Assembly (NCBI GenBank): GCA_903853385.1
Contig: CAINTJ010000030.1
Coordinates: 1 to 64,000 of the forward strand
Length of the DNA: 64,000 nt
Reading direction: 5' to 3'
Origin: an uncultured Gammaproteobacteria bacterium
GTDB lineage: Bacteria; Pseudomonadota; Gammaproteobacteria; Pseudomonadales; Pseudohongiellaceae
Numbering within the stretch: position 1 is the first letter of the stretch; every line of letters begins with the position of its first letter. A model generated the notes under the pieces. That model was given only the letters and a program-made list of their open reading frames with translations. It was not told the origin of the DNA and made no database searches. A program made the translations under genes and the position numbers. Shown here piece by piece: positions 43,474-56,698 of this stretch.

Positions 43474-44925
43474 TCATTTGACCAGCTTAATCCATTGCCC
43501 GGCTTTGGGTTGACCAGCCGGGTAATCACCATTCATCAGGCGCAGTGTTGCTTCCGGAAATTCCGGCAACCGGCTCTGGCGGGCCAAATCGGCGTAAGTG
43601 CTGCGACCATCGGCCTGGATCCAGCTGATATGCAGCGGATCGGCATAGACAGCTTCTTTAGCGGTGGTCGGGCGCAAGCTCTTGATGGAGTCGAGCAGCG
43701 CCGCATTTACTGCATCGGTCGGGCCGCTGGCGGAAATGCTGTAAGCACGACCCTCATGGTAGAGCACCGCGATGCGTTCACCCGTGGCGGGATTGATGCC
43801 GGTGTAACCTGCAAGGCCGTACTGCTGCAAAGCTTCACCTTGCGCCAGATCGGCGATCTTCAGCACGTCGTGAATAAACTGCGGCGGGGTTAGCGACTGT
43901 TGCAGGCGCTGCGCTTCAACTTTGAGAGTGCCGTGGCTGCCAGCCGGAGCTGTGGCCGTCAGCGTGGTGGTGGTGGCCTGCTGCAGCCAGGCCTCCGGCA
44001 GCACCAGCGTGTAGTTGAGCAGGGGCTGGTAATAGCGGTTACGGCCCTGACTGCCCGCCAGGTTCTGCACTGAGGGGCCTACCAGCAAGCCCGTGGTGGC
44101 GATTCTGAAATCTTGCGGATTTACTGCCACCGGGGTCCGGGTTTTCAGGGTGTTGCTCTGGGCAATGGCGTCGTGCAGGCGGGTATCGTTGCTGGGATGC
44201 GTGGCAAACAAACCGTGATAGGCCGGCGCCTTTTTGGCGTTTTTGCGGTTGAAGTCTTCCTGGTTCTTCAGCACGGTGATTACTTCCACCATTGCATTGG
44301 GATCATAGCCGGCTTTTGCCAGATATTCGGCGCCCAGACCGTCGGCCTCCAGTTCCATCTCGCGTCCATAACCACTGATCAGTGCTCCGCCAAACAGGTC
44401 GGCAGTGTTGCCCAGCGAGCTGACCCCGGTGGCCAATACCGCAGCGGTGCTGAGAATTCTGGAAGTGGTTTGTGCGGTATTTTGCCGCACGGCATGACGG
44501 GCAGTGACATGGCCTATCTCATGCCCCATGACCGCAGCCAGTTGTGATTCCGAAGTCAGGACATCGAGCAGGCCGCGATTGACGTAGATATAGCCGCCCG
44601 GCAATGCGAAAGCGTTGATGTCGGTGCTGTCGATGATCGTAAAGTGGTAGTGCAGCTCGGGCCGATGCGAAATGGCGGCCAGACGCTGACCGACTTTTTC
44701 AACCAGCGCCTGCAGTTTTGCGTCGTGGTAAATCTGGGTGGAAAGCAGCAGTTTTTCATGTTCGGTTCTGCCGGTTTCAAGTTCACTTTTTTCGCTCATT
44801 AGCACGAAATTGGCACCGCCCGTGGGATTGCCGGCACAACTGCCAAGCAGGAGGGCGCACGCCAGCGCGGCCCAGCGCAGCAGCACGCCAGCACACAATC
44901 CTGGTTTTATACGGGGTGAGTTCAT
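43474..44925 (-). CDS. M48-family metalloprotease lipoprotein
   Basis: A 483-residue outer-membrane-type lipoprotein protease. ATG 44925 overlaps the stop of a 33-codon frame (ATGA). The signal peptide ends in lipobox LLGSC (AALACALLLGSC). The peptidase M48 domain has YIYVNRGLLDVLTSESQLAAVMGHEIGHVTARHAV with HExxH, and GREMELEADGLGAEYLAKAGYDP with the third ligand Glu, as in BepA/LoiP. The C-terminal half is a separate domain (LVLPEAWLQQ onward). BepA-like proteins control outer-membrane protein quality. Gene packing with the TolQ-like gene suggests it works with that apparatus. Confidence 0.88.
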   Translation of the reverse strand: MNSPRIKPGLCAGVLLRWAALACALLLGSCAGNPTGGANFVLMSEKSELETGRTEHEKLLLSTQIYHDAKLQALVEKVGQRLAAISHRPELHYHFTIIDSTDINAFALPGGYIYVNRGLLDVLTSESQLAAVMGHEIGHVTARHAVRQNTAQTTSRILSTAAVLATGVSSLGNTADLFGGALISGYGREMELEADGLGAEYLAKAGYDPNAMVEVITVLKNQEDFNRKNAKKAPAYHGLFATHPSNDTRLHDAIAQSNTLKTRTPVAVNPQDFRIATTGLLVGPSVQNLAGSQGRNRYYQPLLNYTLVLPEAWLQQATTTTLTATAPAGSHGTLKVEAQRLQQSLTPPQFIHDVLKIADLAQGEALQQYGLAGYTGINPATGERIAVLYHEGRAYSISASGPTDAVNAALLDSIKSLRPTTAKEAVYADPLHISWIQADGRSTYADLARQSRLPEFPEATLRLMNGDYPAGQPKAGQWIKLVK

Positions 44926-45023
44926 GGATGACCGGAGCTGCAACTGCCGTTGCCGCCGATAAATTGCTTGAGCTGGTTGCTAAGACCGCTGCAGGCATTG
45001 GCTTCCACGCGGGCTGGCAACAT
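44922..45023 (-). CDS. 33-residue peptide between TolQ-like and protease genes
   Basis: ATG 45023 follows GAGGGAA, which overlaps the end of the TolQ-like gene. The frame is MLPARVEANACSGLSNQLKQ, then FIGGNGSCSSGHP and TGA. The TGA overlaps the ATG of the M48 gene. The composition is soluble with two cysteines and a glycine-rich end. It may be a real small protein or a coupling leader that links translation of the two larger genes. Confidence 0.45.
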   Translation of the reverse strand: MLPARVEANACSGLSNQLKQFIGGNGSCSSGHP

Positions 45024-45034
45024 GGGGAGTTCCC

Positions 45035-45862
45035 TCAGGTCGTTCGCAGGCGGCTGATCAGCTCATCTTCTGCATATTGTTCGGTATCCAGCACCAGCCG
45101 GTCTTGCACCAGCTGCAGCTCGTGAAATACATACATCACCAGGATACACAACGTCAGTGCCGTGAAAGTAGAGTTGAATGACAGGCCCAGGCCGGAAGTC
45201 AGCGCGGCCGGGTTGGTACTGTTCAGCACAAACTGAGCACTTTCCAGCGCTTCTCCCAAGCCGCGCACGGTACCGACGAAACCGATGGCCGGGATCGACC
45301 ACACTGCAAAACGTATCGTCGATAATTCGGCATCGAGGCGGGTGGCCTCAATTTCGCAACTGTGGTGCACGGTGGTGGCGGCATCCTGGATGTTGCGGGT
45401 GGCGCCAAAGCGCTTGAGGGCCGACTTCAATACGCGCGGCACTACCGATTCCTGCAAATGTTTGGGGAGTTGATCAAAGCGGCGCAGGTGATCGCGCGCA
45501 TCATCGGGCAGGATGCAGGCGCCCGGCTGCAATTGCAGGATGTCGTCCTCCAGCAATTTTCTGGAACGCTTGGCGTTGGCTACCCGCAAGCCGGCCAGCA
45601 GCAAGGCCCACACGGTCACGATGACGGAGGTTTCCGGCTCCGGCTCGGCAATCACCACCAGAATGGAGCGGGTGGGTTTGTATTTGGAGTCGGCATCAAC
45701 CAGCGCCTGTTGCTGCCCGCGCCATTCCACTGCCGAGGGGCGTACATAGACGGCATAGGTAAGCTGGACGACCAGGGTCACCACCAGCAACAAGGCAATA
45801 CTCATGAAGCGGTCCAGCGTCTTGTTGGTCTGCAGCACGCCCAGCCAGTCGGAAACATTCAT
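45035..45862 (-). CDS. MotA/TolQ/ExbB-like proton channel protein
   Basis: A 275-residue inner-membrane protein. Predicted membrane helices are at about 20-40 (MSIALLLVVTLVVQLTYAVYV), 79-96 (SVIVTVWALLLAGLRVA), 185-206 and 225-248. The third carries IPAIGFVGTVRGLGEAL, the family signature, and the fourth is LGLSFNSTFTALTLCILVMYVF with conserved polar residues. The cytoplasmic loop ~97-184 is moderately charged. Family members form pentamers that, with a TolR/ExbD/MotB partner bearing an Asp, convert proton flow into torque. Candidate partners are the two VWA proteins of the divergent operon. The next genes downstream are the 33-residue peptide and the M48 lipoprotein. Confidence 0.82.
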   Translation of the reverse strand: MNVSDWLGVLQTNKTLDRFMSIALLLVVTLVVQLTYAVYVRPSAVEWRGQQQALVDADSKYKPTRSILVVIAEPEPETSVIVTVWALLLAGLRVANAKRSRKLLEDDILQLQPGACILPDDARDHLRRFDQLPKHLQESVVPRVLKSALKRFGATRNIQDAATTVHHSCEIEATRLDAELSTIRFAVWSIPAIGFVGTVRGLGEALESAQFVLNSTNPAALTSGLGLSFNSTFTALTLCILVMYVFHELQLVQDRLVLDTEQYAEDELISRLRTT

Positions 45863-46182
45863 TGTGTTGCTACCTCAATATTCGCAAACGAGAGTAAACG
45901 CGCTATTTGCCCAAGTCCAGCCCATTCGGGCCGATAAAAACCGTCTGGCAATGGCGGGTGGCAACAATGCCAGAACCCGGCAATAGTGCAGTAAAAATCA
46001 GCAGATTCTTAAGTCCGGGTTCAGCTAAAACCAGAAAGATGAAGGTCTTGGGCGGGCTTTGGGGCTATAAATCAACTTCTTGCCACAGTGTTGGGCAAGG
46101 CCCCTGAAATCAGGGGATAATCGGCCCAGTCTGCCAGTGCTGGCTTGCACCATGGCCGGGTCAATGATCGAAACCAATCTGC
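45863..46182. other. Divergent control region of the envelope cluster
   Basis: This 320-bp gap separates the TolQ-like gene (minus) from the TPR gene (plus) and should hold both promoters. The clearest element is the palindrome at 46101-46116. A TATAAA at 46066-46071 lacks a proper -35. I see no gene here. Confidence 0.45.
46091..46121 (+). promoter_or_regulatory. Putative activated promoter with palindrome in the spacer
   Basis: TTGGGC (46091-46096) and GATAAT (46116-46121) are 19 bases apart, and CCCCTGA-AA-TCAGGGG (46101-46116) lies between, overlapping the first base of the -10. A long spacer with a central dyad resembles MerR-type promoters. It lies about 60 bp upstream of the TPR gene. 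Weak without experiment. Confidence 0.35.
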
Positions 46183-47712
46183 ATGAATGAACCAACCACA
46201 GCACCGTCGTCTCCCCCGGCTGGGAGTGCAGCGCGCAGCAGCGAAGCCCCCACCCTTGGCATGAGCGAGCAGCTCAAGCTGCGCAACGCCCAGCAAAAGA
46301 CCAATGTCGTATTGTGGGGAATTTTTGGCTTGTTGCTGGTTCTGGTGGCGATAGTGATTTTTGTGCTGCCGGGCTATCTGGGCACGGCAACCCCGAAAGT
46401 GGCGGCCGTGCCGGCCACACCCGCTGCCGCAGTGACTGCCACTGCCCCGACTCCCGGGCTCTCGCCGTTTGAAGAAGCACAACGATTGCGTCAGCGCGAA
46501 GCTGCGCAGACGACCCTGGCCTCCCTGCTGGAAGTGCAGGCTGCCCTGGAAGCCAGACAAGTCACCAACTGGGCCGAAACTGCCTACAGCGCAGCACTGG
46601 TGCAGGCCAGGAGTGCTGATGACTTATATGCCACCCAGCAATTTGCCAAAGCCAATGAGCTTTACCAGTCGGCACTGACAGCGTTGCAAAAAATCAGTAA
46701 CAGCCAGAGCGCGGTGTTTACCGAGGCAATGAATGCAGCCAGTGCAGCCTATGCAGCGGGATCAGCGGTCACCGCCGAAACCGCTTATCGCAAGGCGCTG
46801 GTGTTGCAACCTGACAGCGCGGAAGCCGCCAGCGGTTTGAAACGCTCGCTGGTGTTGACGCAGGTAAACAGACTGATGAATGACGGACGCAGCAAACAGG
46901 CCGCGCAACAACTGGAAGCCGCCCGCGATGCCTATCAGCAAGCGGCAACCCTGGATGCCGCCTATAGCGCTGCTGCCACCGCTGTGCGTGAAATGAACAC
47001 CGCCATCGCGGATCGTAATTTTTCCGCCGCCATGTCGCGCGGTTATGCCGCCTTGCAAGCGGATCAATATGAACAAGCCCTGGCCGGATTTCATCAGGCG
47101 CAAACCATGCATCCCAATGCCAGTGAAGTCAGTGCCGCGATTCAGCAGGTCAACGACAAGCAGACTTTTGCCAGCGTGAACGTGCATATGGCGGCCGCAG
47201 CCAAATTCGAGGCTGATGAAAACTGGCAGAGCGCGGTGGAGGCGTGGAATCAGGCGCTGGCGGTGGATGCGAATCTGGTGAAAGCCCAGCAAGGCCTCAA
47301 GCGCAGCCAGAGTCGCAATCAGCTCGATACATTTCTGAATGCCACCATTACGGCGCCGCTGCGGCTGGCGGATGACAGCGTTTACAAGCAGGCCGAGCAA
47401 GTACTGGCAGAGGCAGGCAAGCTGGCCTCTGCCGGCACCAAACTGCAGGGTCAGCTGGGCAAGGTGCGTGACTTCATGACCCGCGTGCGCATTCCGGTGC
47501 AGGTGCAGCTCCAGTCAGACGGACAGACCAAGGTAACGATTTTCCATGTGAGCGAACTGGGGCTGTTTACCAGCCAAAGTGTGAAGCTCACACCGGGTAC
47601 CTACACAGCCGTGGGAATACGCAATGGCTACCGGGATGTGCGCCAGGAATTTTCAGTAAGCATTGACGGACAAGCGCCCGTTGTAACAGTAACCTGTAAA
47701 GAAGCCATCTAG
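46183..47712 (+). CDS. Membrane-anchored TPR protein with beta C-terminal domain
   Basis: A 509-residue protein of unknown function. Residues 1-40 are cytoplasmic and Pro/Ser/Ala-rich. One membrane helix spans ~42-63 (VVLWGIFGLLLVLVAIVIFVLPGYL). After a Pro/Ala linker, ~145-400 hold TPR-like helical repeats (FAKANELYQSALTALQKI, SAVTAETAYRKALVLQPDSAEAASGLKRSL, QYEQALAGFHQAQTMHPNASEV, NWQSAVEAWNQALAVDANLVKAQQGL). The last ~75 residues are a PEGA-like strand domain (VQVQLQSDGQTKVTIFHVSELG, LTPGTYTAVGIRNGYRDVRQEFSVSI). It should sit in the periplasm as a scaffold. First gene of the plus-strand operon; the next starts 20 bp later. Confidence 0.75.
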   Translation: MNEPTTAPSSPPAGSAARSSEAPTLGMSEQLKLRNAQQKTNVVLWGIFGLLLVLVAIVIFVLPGYLGTATPKVAAVPATPAAAVTATAPTPGLSPFEEAQRLRQREAAQTTLASLLEVQAALEARQVTNWAETAYSAALVQARSADDLYATQQFAKANELYQSALTALQKISNSQSAVFTEAMNAASAAYAAGSAVTAETAYRKALVLQPDSAEAASGLKRSLVLTQVNRLMNDGRSKQAAQQLEAARDAYQQAATLDAAYSAAATAVREMNTAIADRNFSAAMSRGYAALQADQYEQALAGFHQAQTMHPNASEVSAAIQQVNDKQTFASVNVHMAAAAKFEADENWQSAVEAWNQALAVDANLVKAQQGLKRSQSRNQLDTFLNATITAPLRLADDSVYKQAEQVLAEAGKLASAGTKLQGQLGKVRDFMTRVRIPVQVQLQSDGQTKVTIFHVSELGLFTSQSVKLTPGTYTAVGIRNGYRDVRQEFSVSIDGQAPVVTVTCKEAI

Positions 47713-47732
47713 TCACTTCCGGCCCGCTATCC

Positions 47733-49817
47733 ATGTCAGAGTTTTCCAACAATCATAATGGCCACAATCAGGATGATGAACCCATTGTCCCGATTGAGTT
47801 CACACCACTCATCGCCTCGCACCAACGCTGGCGCCGGCCCAATGTGGTCAGTGTGGCGATCGGTTGCGGGTTGCTGGTGTTTGTGGCACTCAGCTGGTTT
47901 GTGGTCACCGCACGCTCGGTGTCGTTTGTGGTGAATCCGCCGGAAGCGCTGGTGTCATTGTCTGGGCAAATGGCAGTGAAAGTCGGTTCGCGTTATCTGA
48001 TTCGCCAGGGTGAAGTCGAGCTCACTCTGAAAGCGCCGGGTTATTACGATCACAACGCTACGATTACCGTTGGCGAAACCCAGACGCAGACTTTCAGTAT
48101 GGCCCTGGATCCCTTGCCGGGCTTTCTTGATGTAGATACCGGCGCAGTCACCGGAGCTGAAGTGATTGCCGATGGTAAAGCGGTGGGCACCACGCCACTC
48201 AAACATCTCGGACTCGAAGCGGGCGAACACACACTGACGCTACGCAGCCCGCGCTATGAGCCACAGCAAACCCACGTGCTGATCAAGGGCCGTGCAGCCG
48301 AGCAAAGCCTGTCGCTGGAATTGTTGCCGGCGTGGGCGGCAGTGGCATTTGCCACTACGCCGGTTGGTGCCACCGTCACCATCGATGGCGCCGTGGCCGG
48401 ACAAACGCCGCTCACCACCGAGGTGCTGGCAGGTGAGCACGAAGTCGTGGTGAAGCTGGTGGCCCACAAAGCCTGGACCGATAACCTTACTGTGGTTGCC
48501 CGTCAAAATCTCACGCTGCCTCCGATCACGTTGCAGCAGGCTGATGGTCTGGTGCTGCTGCGTTCCTCTCCCAGCAAAGCCAGTGTGACCGTGGATGGTG
48601 TGTACAAAGGCCAGACACCACTAGAGCTGACGCTGGCACCGAGTCGCGCACATCAACTTACCTTTTTCCTGAACGGCTACAAGGAAGCCAGTCAGCAGGT
48701 GCGCAGCAGTGCTGCCGAAGAAAGTACCGTCAATGCCACACTTGAACCCTTGTTGAGTTCGGTGCAAGTGAAGGCTACCCCGGACGATGCCGAGCTGTTC
48801 GTCAACGGTGTGTCGAAAGGCAAGGCCAACCAGAGTATTGAATTACTGGCCGCCAGCCAGACCATCGAGGTGCGGCGTGAAGGCTACGTGCCTTTTACTA
48901 CTGCTTTCATCTCGCGCCCCGGCATGGAGCAGCAGTTGAACGTAGTGCTGAAAACGCTGGCACAACAAAAGCAGGAATCCGTCAAAGCGCAAATCACCAC
49001 CGTCAACGGCCAGGTGCTGAAACTGTTGCATCCGGGTAATTTCGTAATGGGATCTTCGCGCCGGGAAGCCGGGCGCCAGGCCAACGAAGTGTTGCGCAAT
49101 GTGTCGCTGACCAAAGCGTTTTATCTTTCACTCACCGAAGTCACCAACGCGCAGTTTGCTGCCTTCGATGCCAAACATGTGTCTGGCATGGTCCAGAATC
49201 ATAGTCTTGCCACCGACAACCAGCCGGTCGTGCGCGTGACCTGGGAACAAGCCGCGCGTTACAGCAATTGGCTGAGCGAGAAAGAAAATCTGCCGCCGTT
49301 TTACAAAGTCGAAGGCCAGACCATTGTGGGTAACAATCCCGACAGCACCGGCTACCGGCTGGCTACCGAAGCAGAGTGGGAGTGGGCTGCGCGCGTGAAT
49401 GGCGACCCCAACTCGCTGATGAAATTCCCATGGGGCGATACCTTGCCGCCACCGCCCAATCAAGGCAACTACGCCGATATTTCGGCCGGTACATTTCTGG
49501 GGCGGGTGCTGACGGATTACAACGACGGCTTTGTGGTCTCGGCACCGGTGGCCAGTTTCGCGGCCAACGCCAACGGGTTTTTCGACATCGGCGGCAACGT
49601 GGCGGAATGGGTGCATGATTTCTACGGCATTAGCACCGCTACCGGTAATGCCATTGAACAAAATCCGCTGGGTCCCGGCACCGGCACCTATCATGTGATT
49701 CGCGGCTCCAGCTGGGCACACGGTTCAGTGACAGAGTTGCGTCTTTCCTATCGTGATTACAACAATGCCGAGCGTGACGATGTGGGTTTCCGCATTGCCC
49801 GCTACCTGGGAGAATAA
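47733..49817 (+). CDS. Membrane-anchored PEGA-repeat protein with FGE-like domain
   Basis: A 694-residue protein. One membrane helix at ~38-59 (VSVAIGCGLLVFVALSWFVV) follows a charged cytoplasmic tail. Four or five PEGA-type beta units occupy ~60-430, e.g. VAFATTPVGATVTIDGAVAGQTPL, LLRSSPSKASVTVDGVYKGQTPL and VKATPDDAELFVNGVSKG. Residues ~440-694 form a formylglycine-generating-enzyme/SUMF1 fold: FVMGSSRREAGRQANE, LTEVTNAQFAAFDAKHVSG, YRLATEAEWEWAARV, GFFDIGGNVAEWVHDFYG and VIRGSSWAHGS...GFRIARYLGE. The copper-binding/catalytic cysteines of true FGE in the RGGSW region are absent (AHGSVTELRL instead), so it is probably a binding module, not an oxidase. Confidence 0.82.
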   Translation: MSEFSNNHNGHNQDDEPIVPIEFTPLIASHQRWRRPNVVSVAIGCGLLVFVALSWFVVTARSVSFVVNPPEALVSLSGQMAVKVGSRYLIRQGEVELTLKAPGYYDHNATITVGETQTQTFSMALDPLPGFLDVDTGAVTGAEVIADGKAVGTTPLKHLGLEAGEHTLTLRSPRYEPQQTHVLIKGRAAEQSLSLELLPAWAAVAFATTPVGATVTIDGAVAGQTPLTTEVLAGEHEVVVKLVAHKAWTDNLTVVARQNLTLPPITLQQADGLVLLRSSPSKASVTVDGVYKGQTPLELTLAPSRAHQLTFFLNGYKEASQQVRSSAAEESTVNATLEPLLSSVQVKATPDDAELFVNGVSKGKANQSIELLAASQTIEVRREGYVPFTTAFISRPGMEQQLNVVLKTLAQQKQESVKAQITTVNGQVLKLLHPGNFVMGSSRREAGRQANEVLRNVSLTKAFYLSLTEVTNAQFAAFDAKHVSGMVQNHSLATDNQPVVRVTWEQAARYSNWLSEKENLPPFYKVEGQTIVGNNPDSTGYRLATEAEWEWAARVNGDPNSLMKFPWGDTLPPPPNQGNYADISAGTFLGRVLTDYNDGFVVSAPVASFAANANGFFDIGGNVAEWVHDFYGISTATGNAIEQNPLGPGTGTYHVIRGSSWAHGSVTELRLSYRDYNNAERDDVGFRIARYLGE

Positions 49818-49818
49818 A

Positions 49819-50181
49819 ATGCGTAGGCAGATGCTTGCAATGTGCTTGCTGCTCGCCTGGGTGGCGCCCGTACCGGCTGCCGACACTGCCGCGCCGAAAA
49901 CCGCCATTACCAAAACCGTCACCACAGCCAGGCCCAAATCCGACAAGCTCAGTGCCAGCGAAATCAAGGAAGCCGAAGACATGCTGGCCAAAGAGGCGGC
50001 AGTACAGGCGGCTGAAGCCAAAGCCGCTGCAGCCGCGCCGAAAAAGCCGGAGCTCACCAATCCAGCCACGCCAGCCAAGGCCGCGACCGGGCAGAGCGCG
50101 AAAGCCAGGAATGATGAAGACTTCGTGCCCACCACCAAGATCTCGGAAGATCTGCCGGTGGCGTTCCCGGCTGACATATAA
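49819..50181 (+). CDS. Small exported Ala/Lys-rich protein
   Basis: A 120-residue protein starting one base after the PEGA-FGE stop with GGGAGA upstream. The signal peptide is MRRQMLAMCLLLAWVAPVPA. The mature part has a helical stretch (SASEIKEAEDMLAKEAAVQAAEAKAAAAA), a Pro-rich linker and a C-terminal tail DEDFVPTTKISEDLPVAFPADI that looks like a conserved docking segment. No domain recognised. Its place inside the operon suggests a periplasmic connector of the apparatus. Confidence 0.6.
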   Translation: MRRQMLAMCLLLAWVAPVPAADTAAPKTAITKTVTTARPKSDKLSASEIKEAEDMLAKEAAVQAAEAKAAAAAPKKPELTNPATPAKAATGQSAKARNDEDFVPTTKISEDLPVAFPADI

Positions 50182-50217
50182 CGTGATGACTTCAACTGCC
50201 TTCGATAAACTGCAAGA

Positions 50218-51564
50218 GTGCAACCCACCGTGACCGAGTACTTGATCGAACTTCAGGATCACAATCTCTGCATACGCTCATCGCAGCAAGTACTGGTGCG
50301 CAGCCCGGGCTTTGCCAATATCGCTGGCCCGTTGCCGGTGTTTGGCGAAGCGGCCCGCAGCCAGGCGCGCCAGCATCCTCGCCACAGCTTCAACAATTTC
50401 TGGGCCCAACTGGGGCTGGATCCGCTCACCATCAAGAACAAGCATTTTCGCCACAACGCCGACCTTGCCTATGGCCATCTCAATTCCCTCGTCAGCGAAT
50501 TGAACCTGCAAGGCAGCGCGGTGCTGGCAGTACCTGCCAACTACACACGCGCGCAATTGGCGGTGTTGCTCGGCGTCGCCAAACAGTGTGCATTCACTGC
50601 CGTCGGGCTGGTGGACCTGGCCTTGTTGCAAGCTGCCGGCAGCGTTGCTGACTACGACAGTGACTGCATCATCATCGACCTGCAACTGCATCAAACCGTG
50701 CTCACCAGTTTCCGCAAAACCGGCGCGCATGTGGTGCGAGATCGGGTGGTGCAGATACCGTTTGCCGGCTTGCTGGCCTTGCAAGACGCCTGGCTCAACC
50801 TGATCACCGATGAGTTCATCCGCCAGTGCCGTTTCGATCTGCAACGTGATGCCGAATCCGAACAATACATAGTGAACCAGTTGGGCGCCGTGCTGACTAC
50901 CAGCCGCAACCACAACGAACTGGTGCTTGATATCAATCTCAAGGGCGCGGTGCAGCAGGCGCACTTGACCTTCCATCAGTTCGAACAAAAAGCACTGCCG
51001 GTGTTTGCCCGCATCAACCAGGAACTCGCAGCGCTGCGCAATCCCGGCACCAGTGTGCAGGTGGCTACCGAGCATGTGAATCTGCCGGGTCTCACCAGCA
51101 GCATTGCAGGCCTGGTGGCTGTGGATGACGACATTGCGATGAACATGCTGGTTCGCCATTTCGCCCACATCAAACAAAGTACCGACAACATGCAGCTGGT
51201 AACCAGGTTGCCGCTGGATCAGGCGGCGGCACCCGGCAAGCAACCAGTTCCCGCACGCATGCCAACCCATGTGCTGCTGCAGCACAAAGCCCACGCGTTG
51301 CCGACCGGCCGGCTCTTGCTGGGTGCAGCAGCAGCGGGCATAGAGAGCGCACGCATCATGCCGCTGCAGATTGAAGGCTTCACTGGCGCCATTGCCCTGG
51401 TGCGCAGCGCGCGCGGCCTGCAACTCGAACTGCATACGACCACACCGGTGCTGCTCAATGGCCACAGCGCGCAAAGCGGACACATGCTGGCGATGGGCGA
51501 CACGCTGGTGTTGGGCACCAGCGGCTTCACCGTGCAATTGATCGTGGTGGAGCACGGCACATGA
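50218..51564 (+). CDS. Actin/Hsp70-like ATPase-fold protein
   Basis: A 448-residue soluble protein. The N-terminus YLIELQDHNLCIRSS resembles the first strands of an actin-fold ATPase. GSAVLAVPANYTRAQLAVLLGVAKQCAFTAVGLVDLALLQAAG parallels the Hsp70 segment VTVPAxFxxxQRxAxxxAxxxAG, and DYDSDCIIIDLQLHQTVLTSF the second phosphate loop. Phosphate-loop glycines are partly lost (DYDSD, no DxGxG), so ATP binding may be weak or absent. The C-terminal ~100 residues (LLLGAAAAGIESARIMPLQIEG to GDTLVLGTSGFTVQLIVVEHG) look like an FHA-like beta domain. GTG 50218 start is uncertain (GTG 50230 possible). Its stop overlaps the VWA gene start. Confidence 0.55.
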   Translation: MQPTVTEYLIELQDHNLCIRSSQQVLVRSPGFANIAGPLPVFGEAARSQARQHPRHSFNNFWAQLGLDPLTIKNKHFRHNADLAYGHLNSLVSELNLQGSAVLAVPANYTRAQLAVLLGVAKQCAFTAVGLVDLALLQAAGSVADYDSDCIIIDLQLHQTVLTSFRKTGAHVVRDRVVQIPFAGLLALQDAWLNLITDEFIRQCRFDLQRDAESEQYIVNQLGAVLTTSRNHNELVLDINLKGAVQQAHLTFHQFEQKALPVFARINQELAALRNPGTSVQVATEHVNLPGLTSSIAGLVAVDDDIAMNMLVRHFAHIKQSTDNMQLVTRLPLDQAAAPGKQPVPARMPTHVLLQHKAHALPTGRLLLGAAAAGIESARIMPLQIEGFTGAIALVRSARGLQLELHTTTPVLLNGHSAQSGHMLAMGDTLVLGTSGFTVQLIVVEHGT

Positions 51565-52649
51565 AAAAGAAACGCGGCGTTGACCCGGTCAGCATGTCGT
51601 TTCTGGATGTGATCTCCTGCGGTTTTGGCGCAGTCATTCTGCTGTTCATGGTGATGAAGCATTCCGCCAATATTGATCCGGCTTCTGCCAATCCGGCCAC
51701 CGTTGCAGAAACCAATTTGCTGGAGGAAGAAATCAGGAATGGCAGGGAAGGCCTGGTCAGAGTGCGCAACATCATTTCCGATGTGGATGAGCAAATGGTG
51801 AAGGCGCAGGGGCTGGCACGTTCGATCCAGGACGACATCAAGAAGAATCTTGATGAAGTGAGCAGCAAGGAAGGTCGCACGCTGGCTGAACAGGAAGACA
51901 TTGCCAAGCTGAAAGCCGATCTTGATTCGAAGGAAAAACAACTGCAGCGGCTGCGTGACAGTGACGACAAAATCAAAGGCAACAACATCCGCGAGTTTGT
52001 CGGTGACGGTAATCGCCAGTATCTGACCGGCCTGATCCTGGGTGGCAGCCGCATCCTGATTCTGGTGGACAACTCGGCCAGCATGCTCGACAACACCATC
52101 GTCAACATTATCCGTCGCCGCAATTTGCCACTGGCCGAACGACTCAGCTCGCCCAAGTGGGTGCATGTGCGCAAAACCGTGGATTGGCTTACTACCCAAA
52201 TGCCGGTGCCGAGCCAGTACCAGATTTACACGTTCAACAATGAAGTTAAACCGTTGCTGCCGGGTACTGAAGGCAAGTGGCTGGAAGTGGCCGACAACGC
52301 GCAGCTTAGCAAGGCGGTAACCGCGTTGAGCCAGACTGTGCCCAGCGAAGGTACCAATCTGCAGAACCTGTTCGCCACCATCCGCCGCATGAACCCGCAG
52401 CCCGACAATATTTATCTGATCACTGACGGGCTGCCCACGCTGGGCGCGCGCGGCAAGACCCAGGGCAATGTCAGCGGTGCCGAACGCGAGAGCTTGTTTG
52501 AACAGGCCTTGAAAGAATTGCCGCCCGGCATCCCCATCAACACCATTCTGGAACCGCTGGAAGGCGACCCGATGGCAGCAGGAGCCTATTGGAAACTGGC
52601 GGTACTGACCAAGGGTTCTTTCCTCATGCCTTCGGCCGACTGGCCGTGA
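51561..52649 (+). CDS. VWA protein with TolR/MotB-like N-terminal helix (1)
   Basis: A 362-residue protein. After a basic start, the membrane helix at ~13-32 (SFLDVISCGFGAVILLFM) has Asp16, placed as in TolR/ExbD/MotB helices that carry protons. Residues ~50-142 form a charged coiled coil. A von Willebrand A domain follows (~163-355) with the metal site DNSAS at 170-174, Thr265 in SEGTNL and Asp289 in LITDGLP, so the MIDAS is complete. The domain should be periplasmic and bind a ligand in a Mg-dependent way. The ATG overlaps the stop of the upstream gene. Its paralogue lies next door. Confidence 0.82.
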   Translation: MKKKRGVDPVSMSFLDVISCGFGAVILLFMVMKHSANIDPASANPATVAETNLLEEEIRNGREGLVRVRNIISDVDEQMVKAQGLARSIQDDIKKNLDEVSSKEGRTLAEQEDIAKLKADLDSKEKQLQRLRDSDDKIKGNNIREFVGDGNRQYLTGLILGGSRILILVDNSASMLDNTIVNIIRRRNLPLAERLSSPKWVHVRKTVDWLTTQMPVPSQYQIYTFNNEVKPLLPGTEGKWLEVADNAQLSKAVTALSQTVPSEGTNLQNLFATIRRMNPQPDNIYLITDGLPTLGARGKTQGNVSGAERESLFEQALKELPPGIPINTILEPLEGDPMAAGAYWKLAVLTKGSFLMPSADWP

Positions 52650-52682
52650 GCAGCACAATCATGAACAGGGCATGCATTTAAC

Positions 52683-53696
52683 ATGGCACGCAGAAGACGA
52701 GAAGCCGATCCCTTCACGATGTCGTTCCTCGACATCATGTGCTGTGGTTTTGGCGCCATCATTCTGTTGATGATGATCTCCCGCTCATCGCCGAATACCT
52801 CGCCGCCCAAGGCGCTGGAAGTGTCGGAAACGCCTACCAGCGGCACGGTGCTGGATCGCCAGAAACAATTGTTTGCGATACGCGGTGAAACCAATACCTT
52901 CAACCGCGAACTCAATGCCAAGCATGAGCAGTTGTCGCAGTACAACGAACGCATCGCGCGGCTCAAGGGCGAACTGTCGGAAATCAACGGCAAGTTCAAC
53001 GCTACCTCGGCGCAGTCGACGGAATATGAAAAACAGCGCGGCAAACTGGCGCTGGCGCAACAGCAGTTGACGGATGAAATGAAACGCCTGCAAGCCAGTC
53101 TCGGTGAGCAGATGGATACCCGTTCAGTGGGTGGCGTGCCGGTTGACAGTGAATACATTATTTTTCTGATCGACACGTCCGGCAGCATGTTTGATTACGC
53201 GTGGAACCGCATGATGGCGGCGATGACGCAAACCTTGAAGGTCTACCCGGAAGTGAAAGGCATCCAGGTGATCAATGACCAGGGTGAATATATGTTCTCG
53301 TCCTACCGCGGCACCTGGATCCCGGACAGTCCGGCCCGTCGTGCTGCCATCATGCAGCGTTTGCGCACCTGGAACCCCTACAGTGAAAGCAGCCCGGTGA
53401 ACGGCATCGTGTCGGCGATTCGTACCTATAATGATCCTGCCAAGAAAATCAGCCTCTATGTGTTTGGCGATGATTTCAGCGGCGACTCGATCAAAGACGT
53501 GGTGGCCACAGTCGACCGCTACAACGTGGATGCAGCCACCGGCAAGCGCGTCATGCGCATCCATGGCATCGGCTTTCCCACCATCTTCTCGCAGATCCCC
53601 AAATACCAGACCGGCGCCTACCGCTTCTCCGCACTGATGCGCGAGCTGGCGCGCAAGAATGGCGGCACCTTTGTCGGGCTGGATGATTTTTATTGA
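52683..53696 (+). CDS. VWA protein with TolR/MotB-like N-terminal helix (2)
   Basis: A 337-residue paralogue of the upstream protein. The membrane helix (SFLDIMCCGFGAIILLMM, ~14-31) again has a conserved Asp (17) after DPFTM. A coiled coil spans ~55-145. The VWA domain begins at ~155 with IIFLIDTSGSMFD (MIDAS Asp164, Ser166, Ser168), then SSYRGTWIPDSPARRAAIMQRLRTW and LYVFGDDFSGDSIKDVV. The second metal loop is GDDFSGD rather than TDG, so the metal site differs from its sibling. It ends ARKNGGTFVGLDDFY. Two non-identical copies suggest a heteromeric partner set for one channel. Confidence 0.82.
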   Translation: MARRRREADPFTMSFLDIMCCGFGAIILLMMISRSSPNTSPPKALEVSETPTSGTVLDRQKQLFAIRGETNTFNRELNAKHEQLSQYNERIARLKGELSEINGKFNATSAQSTEYEKQRGKLALAQQQLTDEMKRLQASLGEQMDTRSVGGVPVDSEYIIFLIDTSGSMFDYAWNRMMAAMTQTLKVYPEVKGIQVINDQGEYMFSSYRGTWIPDSPARRAAIMQRLRTWNPYSESSPVNGIVSAIRTYNDPAKKISLYVFGDDFSGDSIKDVVATVDRYNVDAATGKRVMRIHGIGFPTIFSQIPKYQTGAYRFSALMRELARKNGGTFVGLDDFY

Positions 53697-54257: not shown

Positions 54258-55529
54258 TCACAATCCAGGCTTCGGTGCCGGTTTGGCAGCCGACGCTGAC
54301 AGGTCACCAATCTCGGTGCTGTAGATGTCGGCCAGGATTTCGCGCCACTGTTTGTATTGTTCCTGCACGTTGCCTTTGAGCGTAACCACATGTTCATCCA
54401 GATCGATGGTATGCGGCGCAATTTCCGCACCCATGGAATTGCCCAGCTCGGCCAGTGATTGCGCCTGCATTTGCGCTTCATCTTTCTTGTTGAAGGAATC
54501 CTTGATCAGATAGCCGCCACCGAGCAACGCACCCAGCCCGACGTTGTTCACGTTGGCGTCATTGCGTCCCAGTGCATAGAGTCCGCCGACAATGGCGGCC
54601 ACGCCCAGCACCATGTTGCGCGTAGCTTCGCTTTTCAGCTTGTCGTACTTGATGATTTCCGCGTAGCTGCGCGAGCGGAAGTCGTTGTAAGGGCCTTGCA
54701 TCTGGCGGGCAAAATTGCCGTAGTATTCCTGCAACGCATCCACATACAGATAATCGCGTTCGCGAATGGTGTCGATGCGCTTGAGCATCGGGTCATCCGC
54801 GGCCGGCAAACGGTTGAGCTTGATCTGGCCCCGGCCGCTAGTCGTTAAATATTGGTCAAAGGCCTGTGGTGCAAAACTGCGCGCAAACAACAGGCGGGAA
54901 ATGGTGCGAATGCTGAGCAGCCCGTTGCGATCCAGATTTTTTTTGCGATATGCCAGCATGTCGTTGGCGATGCGGTTGTACAGTCCCAGGAAGGCATCTT
55001 CAGTGCGTCGCTGGCGCGGGTCGTAGCTGTATTTGCCAACCACCTCCTTGTATTCCTTCTCATACCACTGCTGGCCCGAGGCATCCTTGACCGACACTTT
55101 CACCAGCATGGTCTGGCCATCGCTTTGCAAAATGGTGCCATGCACCGCGACATCGGTATTGGACTGGTCATTGGGAATCACCCGCACCGTGCCCCAGGCG
55201 CCGCTGCTTTGCAGGGTTTGCACCAACTGATAAGCCGCGTACTGGGTTTCTGCCATGCGCACATCGGCAAAGGTCAGCTCTTCACGTTTGCTGGGGATGT
55301 CATCAAGGCCGGGCTCAAATACGGTCACGCCCACATCCAGCAATTCGTCTTCGTTGAGCTTGCCGGTTTCCGCTGTCAGCTGCGTGAAGGCAGTAGTGGA
55401 AATCGTTTGCGTGCTGCATGCCGTCAGGCTACCAACCAGCAACAGCGAAGGCAGCGCCAGCGTGAAGTAATGTAAATAAAGGCGCAGTAGTGAGTGGTGC
55501 CAACGTGAAGGAGGTGCTGCTTTCATCAA
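54258..55529 (-). CDS. Lipoprotein with glycine-zipper segment
   Basis: A 423-residue lipoprotein of unknown function. Lipobox at LTAC (Cys38) follows a hydrophobic stretch LALPSLLLVGSLTAC. The N-terminal third (DELLDVGVTVFEPGLDDIPSKREELTFADVRMAETQYAAYQLVQ) resembles a GNA1162- or CsgG-like lipoprotein domain: GAWGTVRVIP and HGTILQSDGQTMLVKVSV. A helical middle part follows, then a hydrophobic glycine-zipper (~MVLGVAAIVGGLYALG ... VGLGALLGGGYLI) and a final TIDLDEHVVTLKGNVQEQYKQWREILADIY. It could contribute to an outer-membrane structure. It is transcribed toward the VWA genes; the second lipoprotein gene lies two bases upstream. Confidence 0.65.
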   Translation of the reverse strand: MMKAAPPSRWHHSLLRLYLHYFTLALPSLLLVGSLTACSTQTISTTAFTQLTAETGKLNEDELLDVGVTVFEPGLDDIPSKREELTFADVRMAETQYAAYQLVQTLQSSGAWGTVRVIPNDQSNTDVAVHGTILQSDGQTMLVKVSVKDASGQQWYEKEYKEVVGKYSYDPRQRRTEDAFLGLYNRIANDMLAYRKKNLDRNGLLSIRTISRLLFARSFAPQAFDQYLTTSGRGQIKLNRLPAADDPMLKRIDTIRERDYLYVDALQEYYGNFARQMQGPYNDFRSRSYAEIIKYDKLKSEATRNMVLGVAAIVGGLYALGRNDANVNNVGLGALLGGGYLIKDSFNKKDEAQMQAQSLAELGNSMGAEIAPHTIDLDEHVVTLKGNVQEQYKQWREILADIYSTEIGDLSASAAKPAPKPGL

Positions 55530-55531
55530 CT

Positions 55532-56698
55532 TTATTTGCTCAAGCCTGTGTATTTACGGTATTCGGTCCACAGTTTTTCGCGCAGGTCCGCATCGGGCTC
55601 ATGGGTGGCAGCTTCCCGCAGCTGACGAGCCACCACGTCATCATCGTTGCCGCTGGGGATGTCGGCGGGGGCCGGGTAAGCCGCCTGGGCCTGGCCGGTA
55701 TATTCACCGGTGTGGGCGATGGCCGGCGCATTGGGTAGCGTGCCATTGCCACCGGTGCCATTGGCAGTGCCACCACCGCCACCGCCACCGCCAATGCCTG
55801 AGGTTTTCGCAGAGGCCAATACCGGGGAATTCTGGCCATTGCCGCCGGCCCCGCTGCCTTCGCCTTGTTCCCCCTTGCCGCCCCCAGCCGCCCCCATCAC
55901 TTTACTGCCCGCGCTGTTGGCGGCACCGTCTGCACCCTGACGTGAAGAGATGATCATGCCATCAAAAGTGCCGTAACTTTTTTCCAGGCGCGCATCAAGG
56001 GCGGCGCGGCGTTCGGCCGCAGTCAACACTGCTGCGCCTGCACCCCCGAGTCCGGCGAAGGGATCGCCAGCTTGCTCACCGTTGCCTCCTGCTTGGGTGC
56101 CGGCCGTGCCGCCACCCGCAGTGGCAGTTGCACCACCTGCTGCGCCCTGCGAGCCAGACTTGCCGCCGGCCGCTGCTGGTTGAGTTTCCGCAGCGCCTTT
56201 GGGCCCACCGGCACCCGCCTGTTGAGCCCCGGTCGCGCCTTTGGGTCCACCGGCGGTAGTGGCCGACGCAGTACCCGCTGCGCCCTTCTGACCTGTAGCC
56301 CCGATGGTGGACTGGGTAGCCGGTGTGCCTGCTTGTCCACCCGCAGCCTCGACGCCTTGGGCACTTGCTGCGGCTTGCGCTCCCCCGGCGGCGGCATTGG
56401 CGGCAGCGCCTGCATTGCTGGAGCTTTCACTCGCACCCGAACTGGCGCTTACGCTGACGGGCGCTTGCGAACTTTCCGGGATCGCAGCGCTTTGGCTGGC
56501 AGAACTGCTGGAAGCTTTGGCTGACGAGGCCGGTGGTGGCACCGACGCCGACGACGGCGAAGTAGTCGGCATGGCCGGCGGCGAGCTGCTGGTGTCCTGT
56601 TTCTTCGGATCATCACAACTGCTTACCAGCACGGCCAGCAAGAGCCCCAGCGCCAAGCGGCACCCTCGTGAATGAGTGGTGAATGAAGGAAGGGGCAT
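55532..56698 (-). CDS. Low-complexity collagen-like lipoprotein
   Basis: A 388-residue lipoprotein. Signal and lipobox: LALGLLLAVLVSSC (Cys28). Residues ~35-215 are Ser/Ala/Gly/Thr/Pro-rich, with collagen-like Gly-X-Y runs (GATGQKGAAG, GGPKGATGAQQAGAGGPKGAA). A short ordered block follows (VLTAAERRAALDARLEKSYGTFDGMIIS), then a glycine-rich part with an eight-Gly run. The C-terminus DDDVVARQLREAATHEPDAD plus LREKLWTEYRKYTG is a compact helical tail. A flexible surface tether with a docking tail seems likely. It is followed after two bases by the second lipoprotein gene. Confidence 0.65.
   Translation of the reverse strand: MPLPSFTTHSRGCRLALGLLLAVLVSSCDDPKKQDTSSSPPAMPTTSPSSASVPPPASSAKASSSSASQSAAIPESSQAPVSVSASSGASESSSNAGAAANAAAGGAQAAASAQGVEAAGGQAGTPATQSTIGATGQKGAAGTASATTAGGPKGATGAQQAGAGGPKGAAETQPAAAGGKSGSQGAAGGATATAGGGTAGTQAGGNGEQAGDPFAGLGGAGAAVLTAAERRAALDARLEKSYGTFDGMIISSRQGADGAANSAGSKVMGAAGGGKGEQGEGSGAGGNGQNSPVLASAKTSGIGGGGGGGGTANGTGGNGTLPNAPAIAHTGEYTGQAQAAYPAPADIPSGNDDDVVARQLREAATHEPDADLREKLWTEYRKYTGLSK

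Follow-up and report, generated by a model that had tools for sequence, protein, structure and literature searches.

The closest described system to the one that we report here is a predicted motor in which a TolQ-like pentamer is joined to a heterologous TPH-vWA pair, with no ExbD or TolR, and in which AlphaFold 3 sets an Asp in the Thr ring of that family (Mol Biol Evol 2025; PMC12204202). We analysed a 64,000-nucleotide stretch of DNA (the window) from an uncultured gammaproteobacterium of the Pseudohongiellaceae (assembly GCA_903853385.1, contig CAINTJ010000030.1, positions 1 to 64,000); it belongs to contig C30 of a genome, G000, that comprises 2.95 Mb in 143 contigs and is estimated to be 100% complete. 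The window has a TolQ-like gene beside a heterologous pair of von Willebrand A (VWA) genes, VWA1 and VWA2, whose products each carry an Asp in a transmembrane (TM) helix, with no tolR or exbD in the cluster, which is how the text of that paper defines the motor (PMC12204202). By every feature that can be tested, the motor of the window is the published TPH-vWA motor, the comparison being with its description rather than with the Idiomarina seed. The original prediction for this DNA, made from the sequence alone, did not recognise the assembly as a named system; the motor core had in fact already been predicted in print (PMC12204202). We find that this core stands in a larger, conserved cluster of genes for membrane proteins and lipoproteins, and we propose that the locus probably encodes a trans-envelope motor of the 5:2 type, driven by the proton-motive force (PMF), that has VWA1 and VWA2 as its axle and acts on the outer membrane.

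The channel subunit, a MotA/TolQ/ExbB-family protein of 275 aa that we call MotA, is encoded at 45035..45862 on the minus strand, scores 43 bits with PF01618 (cut-off 22.9), and carries IPAIGFVGTVRGLGEAL. Three of its helices lie above the hydropathy threshold, and a fourth is probably present. For residue counts in MotA and the two VWA proteins we used open reading frames (ORFs) of 240-360, 330-480 and 300-480 aa for MotA, VWA1 and VWA2, respectively, that contained no X; one locus with a different assembly (L155, described below) was excluded, and sequences identical over the last 200 residues were removed. MotA residues T198, T232, E75, P42 and R200 are invariant in all 99 distinct sequences, which come from both lineages of the system (A and B, below). 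Placed by knowledge of the family, T198 and T232 are presumed to be the pore threonines in the last two helices. A sequence search of the PDB with the MotA profile gave no match.

VWA1 (51561..52649, plus strand, 362 aa) and VWA2 (52683..53696, plus strand, 337 aa) each consist of a TM helix, a coiled coil and a VWA domain, with a metal-ion-dependent adhesion site (MIDAS) in VWA1 and MIDAS-type residues in VWA2. The helix of VWA1 is SFLDVISCGFGAVILL, with Asp16, and that of VWA2 is SFLDIMCCGFGAIILL, with Asp17. As originally noted, the window thus encodes a channel protein together with two VWA proteins whose sole TM helix contains an Asp. The VWA domains score low against the profiles: VWA1 matches VWA_2 with 27.1 bits, barely above the cut-off of 27.0, and VWA2 falls below the cut-offs for both VWA (14.5 against 23.8 bits) and VWA_2 (14.1 against 27.0 bits). 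Their key residues are nonetheless almost completely conserved. Asp16 of VWA1 is found in all 99 sequences that have a residue at that position, the gaps in the other nine of 108 being due to one gene cut at the end of its locus (L011) and eight lineage-B genes whose N-terminus was clipped by the ORF caller; Asp17 of VWA2 is found in 101 of 101. The MIDAS residues D170, S172, S174 and D289 of VWA1 are present in 108/108 sequences and T265 in 102/108, and D164, S166, S168 and D263 of VWA2, together with S236, are present in 101/101 distinct homologues; which Ser would take the place of the MIDAS Thr in VWA2 is a matter of interpretation. In family f58 (loci L098, L099, L100, L102 and L104), no ATG, GTG or TTG precedes the pore helix of VWA1, and the Asp is visible behind a CTG codon at a conserved place in all five loci read, which do not all come from the genomes of the gapped genes; judging by the sequence, CTG is likely to be the start codon of VWA1 in this family, and the eight clipped lineage-B genes seem to start with it too.

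By hhalign, the VWA1 helix is related to that of VWA2 (99.7%, E 1.8e-25). Four core proteins have a single N-terminal TM helix, and a conserved acid within that helix is found in these two alone. In the other two, the TPR and PEGA-FGE proteins, the hydrophobic helix lacks any conserved acid (32 and 33 sequences, respectively, of the first, lineage-A set). In the original prediction, a coiled coil and VWA domain stood in place of an OmpA or ExbD domain. This agrees with our results, in that there is no OmpA-type domain among the Pfam matches listed and no match to PF02472 at E 1 for VWA1, nor for VWA2 among the 25 matches listed out of 33. The cluster of the window has no ExbD gene, all five PF02472 matches of the genome being on other contigs; at the other loci there is one ExbD-like N-terminus, at L059:9138-9557, about 7 kb beyond VWA2. 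A PDB sequence search with the VWA2 profile gave three matches, to coiled coil, and PHROGs and PADLOC gave weak matches, mostly to coiled coil.

The motor genes belong to a seven-gene core, LP55-LP54-TPR-PEGA/FGE-MotA-VWA1-VWA2, the order of which is kept in both deep lineages. Most lineage-A Gammaproteobacteria have in addition a gene of 448 aa for a protein with an Hsp70-type nucleotide-binding domain (NBD) between MotA and VWA1, and, after VWA2, the lipoprotein genes X1 and X2 and the peptidase gene M48. Carriers of the core are found in the Gammaproteobacteria, another family of the phylum, the Desulfobacterota and one Omnitrophota genome. Scanning genome contigs for VWA2 gave 46 loci, and further loci were drawn from genomes. 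A VWA1 or VWA2 profile matched at 106 loci; of these, 44 have the eleven-gene order, 18 the seven-gene order, 14 a six-gene order in which LP55 was not recognised, and two the extended order without the 448-aa gene. Where at least 8 kb of upstream sequence was available (84 loci), MotA and VWA2 were each found in 83, VWA1 in 80, LP54, TPR and PEGA-FGE in 78 each, and LP55 in 64. These loci are not all independent, since some genomes are represented twice (for example by L042 and L158); the counts include L155 and omit L001-L022, L069-L097 and L118-L126, which are mostly short pieces of loci held otherwise. VWA1 is missing from the locus table in L054, L111, L151 and L155, and VWA2 in L066; except in L155, the misses reflect a choice among overlapping ORFs, since other scans show those genes.

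The recurrence of this gene order is far beyond chance, and the expectation that genes for the TolQ-like protein, the VWA pair, PEGA-FGE and TPR would co-occur is strongly borne out across genomes. Indeed, five of the six loci (among the 84) that lack LP54, TPR and PEGA-FGE come from a single genus, g3, in which LP55-LP54-TPR-PEGA/FGE form a separate second cluster and both halves are kept in all five genomes (loci L029, L030, L032, L034 and L035, corresponding to G012, G033, G028, G023 and G019). The sixth is L155. This locus (L155:6068-10513, from the Desulfobacterota genome G850) holds a related yet different assembly that includes an FHA protein, a MotA/TolQ-like protein and a 230-aa protein with the helix SMLDVIASAMGA and a coiled coil, without a VWA match; it also encodes another protein of the FHA type and a VWA-FHA protein of 523 aa.

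The two lineages differ in VWA1 profile score, which is about 500 bits in lineage A and about 250 bits in lineage B. In trees of MotA, VWA1, VWA2, PEGA-FGE, TPR and LP54 (58 to 62 loci per gene, out of 62 chosen), lineage B is a clade with support of 1.0 every time, and all six trees unite the loci from the Desulfobacterota and Omnitrophota, with support from 0.69 to 0.997. Lineage-A loci from the Gammaproteobacteria make up a single group in four of the six trees, the MotA and VWA1 trees being those in which they do not. Two genomes, G1022 (L128 and L129) and G994 (L135 and L136), hold one cluster of each lineage, and the copies of all six genes sort by lineage in the trees; given that both lineages occur together in these genomes, they may have different jobs. 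The genes of the system are inherited together as one unit. Over 57 loci, the tree distances of the six genes show correlations of 0.78 to 0.95, a result that common descent of the genomes alone would also yield.

The system is rare overall and near-fixed in the family of the window. Counting the starting genome of each search, a full-length VWA1 is present in 35 of 36 genomes of that family, the miss being G005, which is estimated to be 77% complete, and in 3 of 21 other genomes of the order. Across the phylum of the window, 15 of 398 sampled genomes have it (23 pass E 0.001). The corresponding figures are 31 of 196 for the Alteromonadaceae, the family of G456 (37 pass), 3 of 247 for the Desulfobacterota, the phylum of the Desulfofustis genome G454 (17 pass), and 1 of 193 for the Omnitrophota, the phylum of G451 (8 pass), where the sole one is the starting genome. 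The closest relatives of the window among the genome contigs scanned are metagenome-assembled genomes of Gammaproteobacteria or Pseudomonadales; Pseudohongiella and OM182 rank lower, at 56% VWA2 identity.

The cluster in the window extends further than was originally thought. The span 45035-53696 is too short, because LP54 and LP55 are core members and M48 is a gammaproteobacterial extension. The divergence of MotA from the VWA operon, which the original prediction noted, holds in the window and not in general, being peculiar to part of this genus: MotA is on the VWA strand in 82 of the 84 loci that have 8 kb or more of upstream sequence. Within the genus, MotA lies inside the operon in G003, G004 and G010, and also in G009 judging by strand and distance to VWA1; it is nearby on the opposite strand in G000, G001, G006 and G007, and G002, G005 and G008, which are estimated to be 73 to 81% complete, yielded no match to this MotA family. 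Between MotA and M48 in the window is a remnant of X2, its C-terminal 27 codons (44949..45029, minus strand), detected by tblastn with the X2 of L031 (74% identity over 27 aa, E 3.6e-7). Given this scar, MotA seems to occupy the former site of X1 and most of X2. The M48 metallopeptidase, a putative lipoprotein (43474..44943, minus strand; PF01435, 131 bits), is the final gene of the gammaproteobacterial extended cluster; 46 of 63 M48 ORFs have a lipobox-like N-terminus, and the gene order ...VWA2-X1-X2-M48 is conserved.

Two further core proteins appear to be anchored in the inner membrane. The TPR protein (46183..47712, plus strand) has one N-terminal TM helix, at about residues 42-60, and is predicted to be otherwise periplasmic; its TPR matches are below the Pfam cut-off. 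The PEGA-FGE protein (47733..49817, plus strand) has an N-terminal TM helix, five PEGA stretches (167 bits) and a C-terminal FGE/sulfatase-modifying-factor domain (136 bits). True FGE enzymes have a catalytic Cys pair. In PEGA-FGE no Cys is found among the columns conserved at 95% or more, the commonest Cys column being residue 511 (24/33), and the catalytic pair seems to be absent, given that no Cys column is well conserved. The TM anchors of the two proteins are alike (hhalign 56%, 46% identity over 24 columns), a hint from sequence likeness that they might pack together or share an origin.

The lipoproteins LP54 (54258..55529, minus strand) and LP55 (55532..56698, minus strand) complete the core. 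The lipobox Cys of LP54 is present in 71 of 71 aligned sequences. An AlphaFold 2 model of the protein (pLDDT 83.3) has an N-terminal domain followed by a long helical part, and the domain resembles those of FlgT (Z 11.3, rmsd 4.2 over 134 residues), PelC (Z 10.6, 2.4 over 112), CsgG (Z 10.1, 3.9 over 138) and TolB (Z 9.2, 3.1 over 102). With Foldseek, the top match was PelC at E 0.002, and none reached E 0.001. Of these proteins, PelC and CsgG are outer-membrane lipoproteins that assemble into rings, and FlgT is part of a flagellar ring in the periplasm. This likeness of a modelled fold does not establish function; LP54 would probably be located at the outer membrane. LP55 has a long low-complexity stretch, a Cys at residue 28 in 25 of 26 sequences, and a conserved C-terminal block from D353 to Y383.

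Two genes lie between PEGA-FGE and VWA1 in the window. SMALL (49819..50181, plus strand) encodes a short secreted protein with a signal-peptide-like N-terminus and an acidic C-terminus, and in the first locus set 13 ORFs matched it upstream of MotA or the 448-aa gene. The 448-aa gene itself, ACT_FHA (50218..51564, plus strand), encodes a predicted cytoplasmic protein that has no Pfam match at E 1. Its AlphaFold 2 model (pLDDT 92.3) matches the NBD of DnaK/mortalin over residues 4 to 317 (Z 27.7, rmsd 2.7-2.9, 312-313 residues). The list of fold matches was filled by Hsp70; the C-terminal beta domain may be FHA-like, as its motif NG...GD suggests.

We propose that five MotA/TolQ-like copies would form the channel, and that one VWA1 and one VWA2, if this stoichiometry is correct, would insert their N-terminal helices into its pore, each presenting one Asp to the Thr ring of the channel. 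The coiled coils would carry two different MIDAS-bearing VWA heads into the periplasm. Upon proton or sodium flow, these heads may use their MIDAS sites to seize partners and let them go, or may themselves be steered by the partners, such that the PMF is turned into force on one or other of the likely partners, PEGA-FGE, TPR and the two lipoproteins (LP54 and LP55). A chain from the inner to the outer membrane could thus be built from the MotA/VWA1/VWA2 motor, a PEGA-FGE rod with a TPR scaffold, and the two lipoproteins. Some proteins with the fold of LP54 form rings or hubs at the outer membrane, and LP54 may build such a structure. Control of the motor from the cytoplasmic side may fall to the Hsp70-NBD protein in lineage-A Gammaproteobacteria, where X1, X2 and the M48 peptidase may work alongside the motor at the outer membrane. 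Gene content, gene order, co-inheritance, invariant residues, lipoprotein signals and the folds of two parts are direct observations; assembly, ion flow, rotation, force, ligand binding by MIDAS, the partners and the location of the lipoproteins are steps that the model would add. As a first guess, the job of the motor could be the assembly or remodelling of the outer membrane, separate from Tol-Pal.

The original idea of a force-generating complex stands in so far as the genes co-occur, the acid and the Thr residues are conserved, and the same model was reached independently in print (PMC12204202). Its core is not new, and the VWA helices gave no detectable homology to ExbD. Several points weigh against the motor that we propose. 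With an ExbD/TolR profile built from five sequences and run over the first 110 residues of ORFs (3815 N-termini), hmmsearch ranks the best VWA1 41st and the best VWA2 64th of 2142 matches, and hhalign of the VWA helices against ExbD/TolR gives 1.7% and 0.65%, values that unrelated TM helices also reach (9.8% for VWA2 against the TPR helix). What the VWA helix appears to share with ExbD is thus confined to the place of the Asp and the presumed role: a single N-terminal TM helix with an Asp near its start, as originally described for TolR and ExbD, is there, and the homology that the likeness might imply is not detectable by either method. Acids are also common just behind the helices of other core proteins (residue 70 of TPR in 19/32, residue 66 of PEGA-FGE in 21/33). 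In MotA, Arg200 follows directly after the GTV motif in the third helix in all 99 sequences; to our knowledge, an invariant Arg at that place is unusual for the TolQ/ExbB family, and because of it the MotA pore may work differently. LP55 was not recognised in 20 of the 84 loci, which weakens its status as a core member; 13 of these loci are of lineage B, where an ORF of about the size that LP55 has in that lineage often stands instead. Lastly, no phenotype was found.

An alternative, partly compatible with the motor, is that the cluster encodes a motorised secretion or surface-motility machine like the type IX secretion system (T9SS; GldKLMN), in which an FGE rod and LP54 would replace the GldK/GldN ring. 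The domain type of LP54 is common to PelC and CsgG, which form rings, and the best NCBIfam match of the FGE domain is GldK. In GldKLMN, moreover, a PMF motor drives an outer-membrane-associated ring that contains GldK (PMC8986121). The match to GldK, however, scores 106 bits against a cut-off of 350, FGE domains are common, PEGA-FGE is anchored by a TM helix whereas GldK is a lipoprotein, and no translocon was recognised among the cluster proteins; we consider this alternative unlikely. A second alternative is a sensor rather than a force generator, with the channel gated by ligand binding to the VWA domains or by envelope strain, ion flow as the signal, and the Hsp70-NBD/FHA-like protein as the relay. 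MIDAS domains bind ligands, and in lineage A the Hsp70-NBD gene is flanked by MotA and VWA1, which would suit such a relay, but no Hsp70-NBD match was found in the lineage-B, Desulfobacterota and Omnitrophota clusters seen, and the pairing of Thr and Asp is that of force-generating relatives (PMC12204202). We judge a sensor improbable. An anti-phage defence system of the Zorya type, with a ZorA/ZorB motor and effectors, is very improbable: the motor superfamily is the same and VWA2 has a weak match to ZorB (E 0.009, mostly over the coiled coil), but there is no match to ZorA, ZorC or ZorD at E 0.1 (PADLOC-DB, 9 proteins), no VWA2 relative was found in viral contigs and no VWA1 relative in plasmids, and the system is near-universal in the family of the window (35/36 genomes), whereas defence genes are usually patchy.

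Beyond the VWA1/VWA2-axle motor itself, it is possible, and we suggest this tentatively, that the cluster is a complete and undescribed trans-envelope machine, in which the motor is coupled through PEGA-FGE and TPR to a ring of LP54 at the outer membrane, with an Hsp70-type regulator in the Gammaproteobacteria. If so, Ton and Tol would be joined by a third type of energiser for the envelope, with a transport, secretion or remodelling job of its own at the outer membrane. Few ways of energising the outer membrane are known, and the cluster predicts another, with lipoproteins as the likely clients. We know of no experiment that has shown VWA/MIDAS grip domains on such a motor. The two-gene prediction in the literature becomes a defined seven-gene system, with a fixed parts list and partners that can be tested. 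A search for terms found no mention of Willebrand, VWA or PEGA in PMC9389320, PMC10341847 and PMC12505986, nor of Willebrand or vWA in PMC12905483, and a description of the wider cluster was not found in the literature, a weak negative given that coverage was without preprints and most subscription journals.

The cluster differs from each of the known systems to which it can be compared. The Zorya motor ZorAB belongs to the same ion-motor superfamily, and the proteins of the window have no match to ZorA or to an effector. MotAB/PomAB with FlgT shares a MotA-like channel, and FlgT is at the top of the list for the LP54 domain, tied with PelC and others, whereas the cluster in the window has no OmpA-type domain among the Pfam matches listed; no flagellin match was found in the window genome at E 0.001, and 15 of the 36 genomes of its family in all are without one. 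The GldKLMN proteins of the T9SS, as far as they are described in PMC8986121, likewise tie an ion motor to outer-membrane-associated parts, one of which has an FGE-type domain; the window has VWA proteins rather than GldM, a TM-anchored PEGA rod, and a score far under the GldK cut-off. Tol-Pal has in common with the cluster a TolQ-family channel and a partner with a TM Asp, and the N-terminal domain of LP54 has the fold of the TolB N-terminal domain (Z 9.2). No TolA, TolB or Pal is encoded in the cluster among the Pfam and NCBIfam matches listed, and the window genome has a separate tolQ-tolR-tolA (278, 130 and 77 bits, all above their cut-offs) and a TolB_N match; of the 20 carrier genomes tested, 19 have a TolB_N match, the exception being the one from the Omnitrophota. 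The published TPH-vWA motor is the nearest, with a TolQ-like gene, a heterologous VWA pair with an Asp in the pore helix, and no tolR or exbD. Section 8 of that paper and the legend to its Fig. 4c,d name no PEGA-FGE, LP54, LP55, Hsp70-NBD, X1, X2 or M48 and give no fixed wider gene order, and the TPR gene mentioned there is one of the other vWA family that the paper treats; neighbours may appear in the drawing of Fig. 4c or in the supplement (PMC12204202). What our analysis adds is the larger, ancient, co-inherited machine of membrane proteins and lipoproteins around the published motor core.

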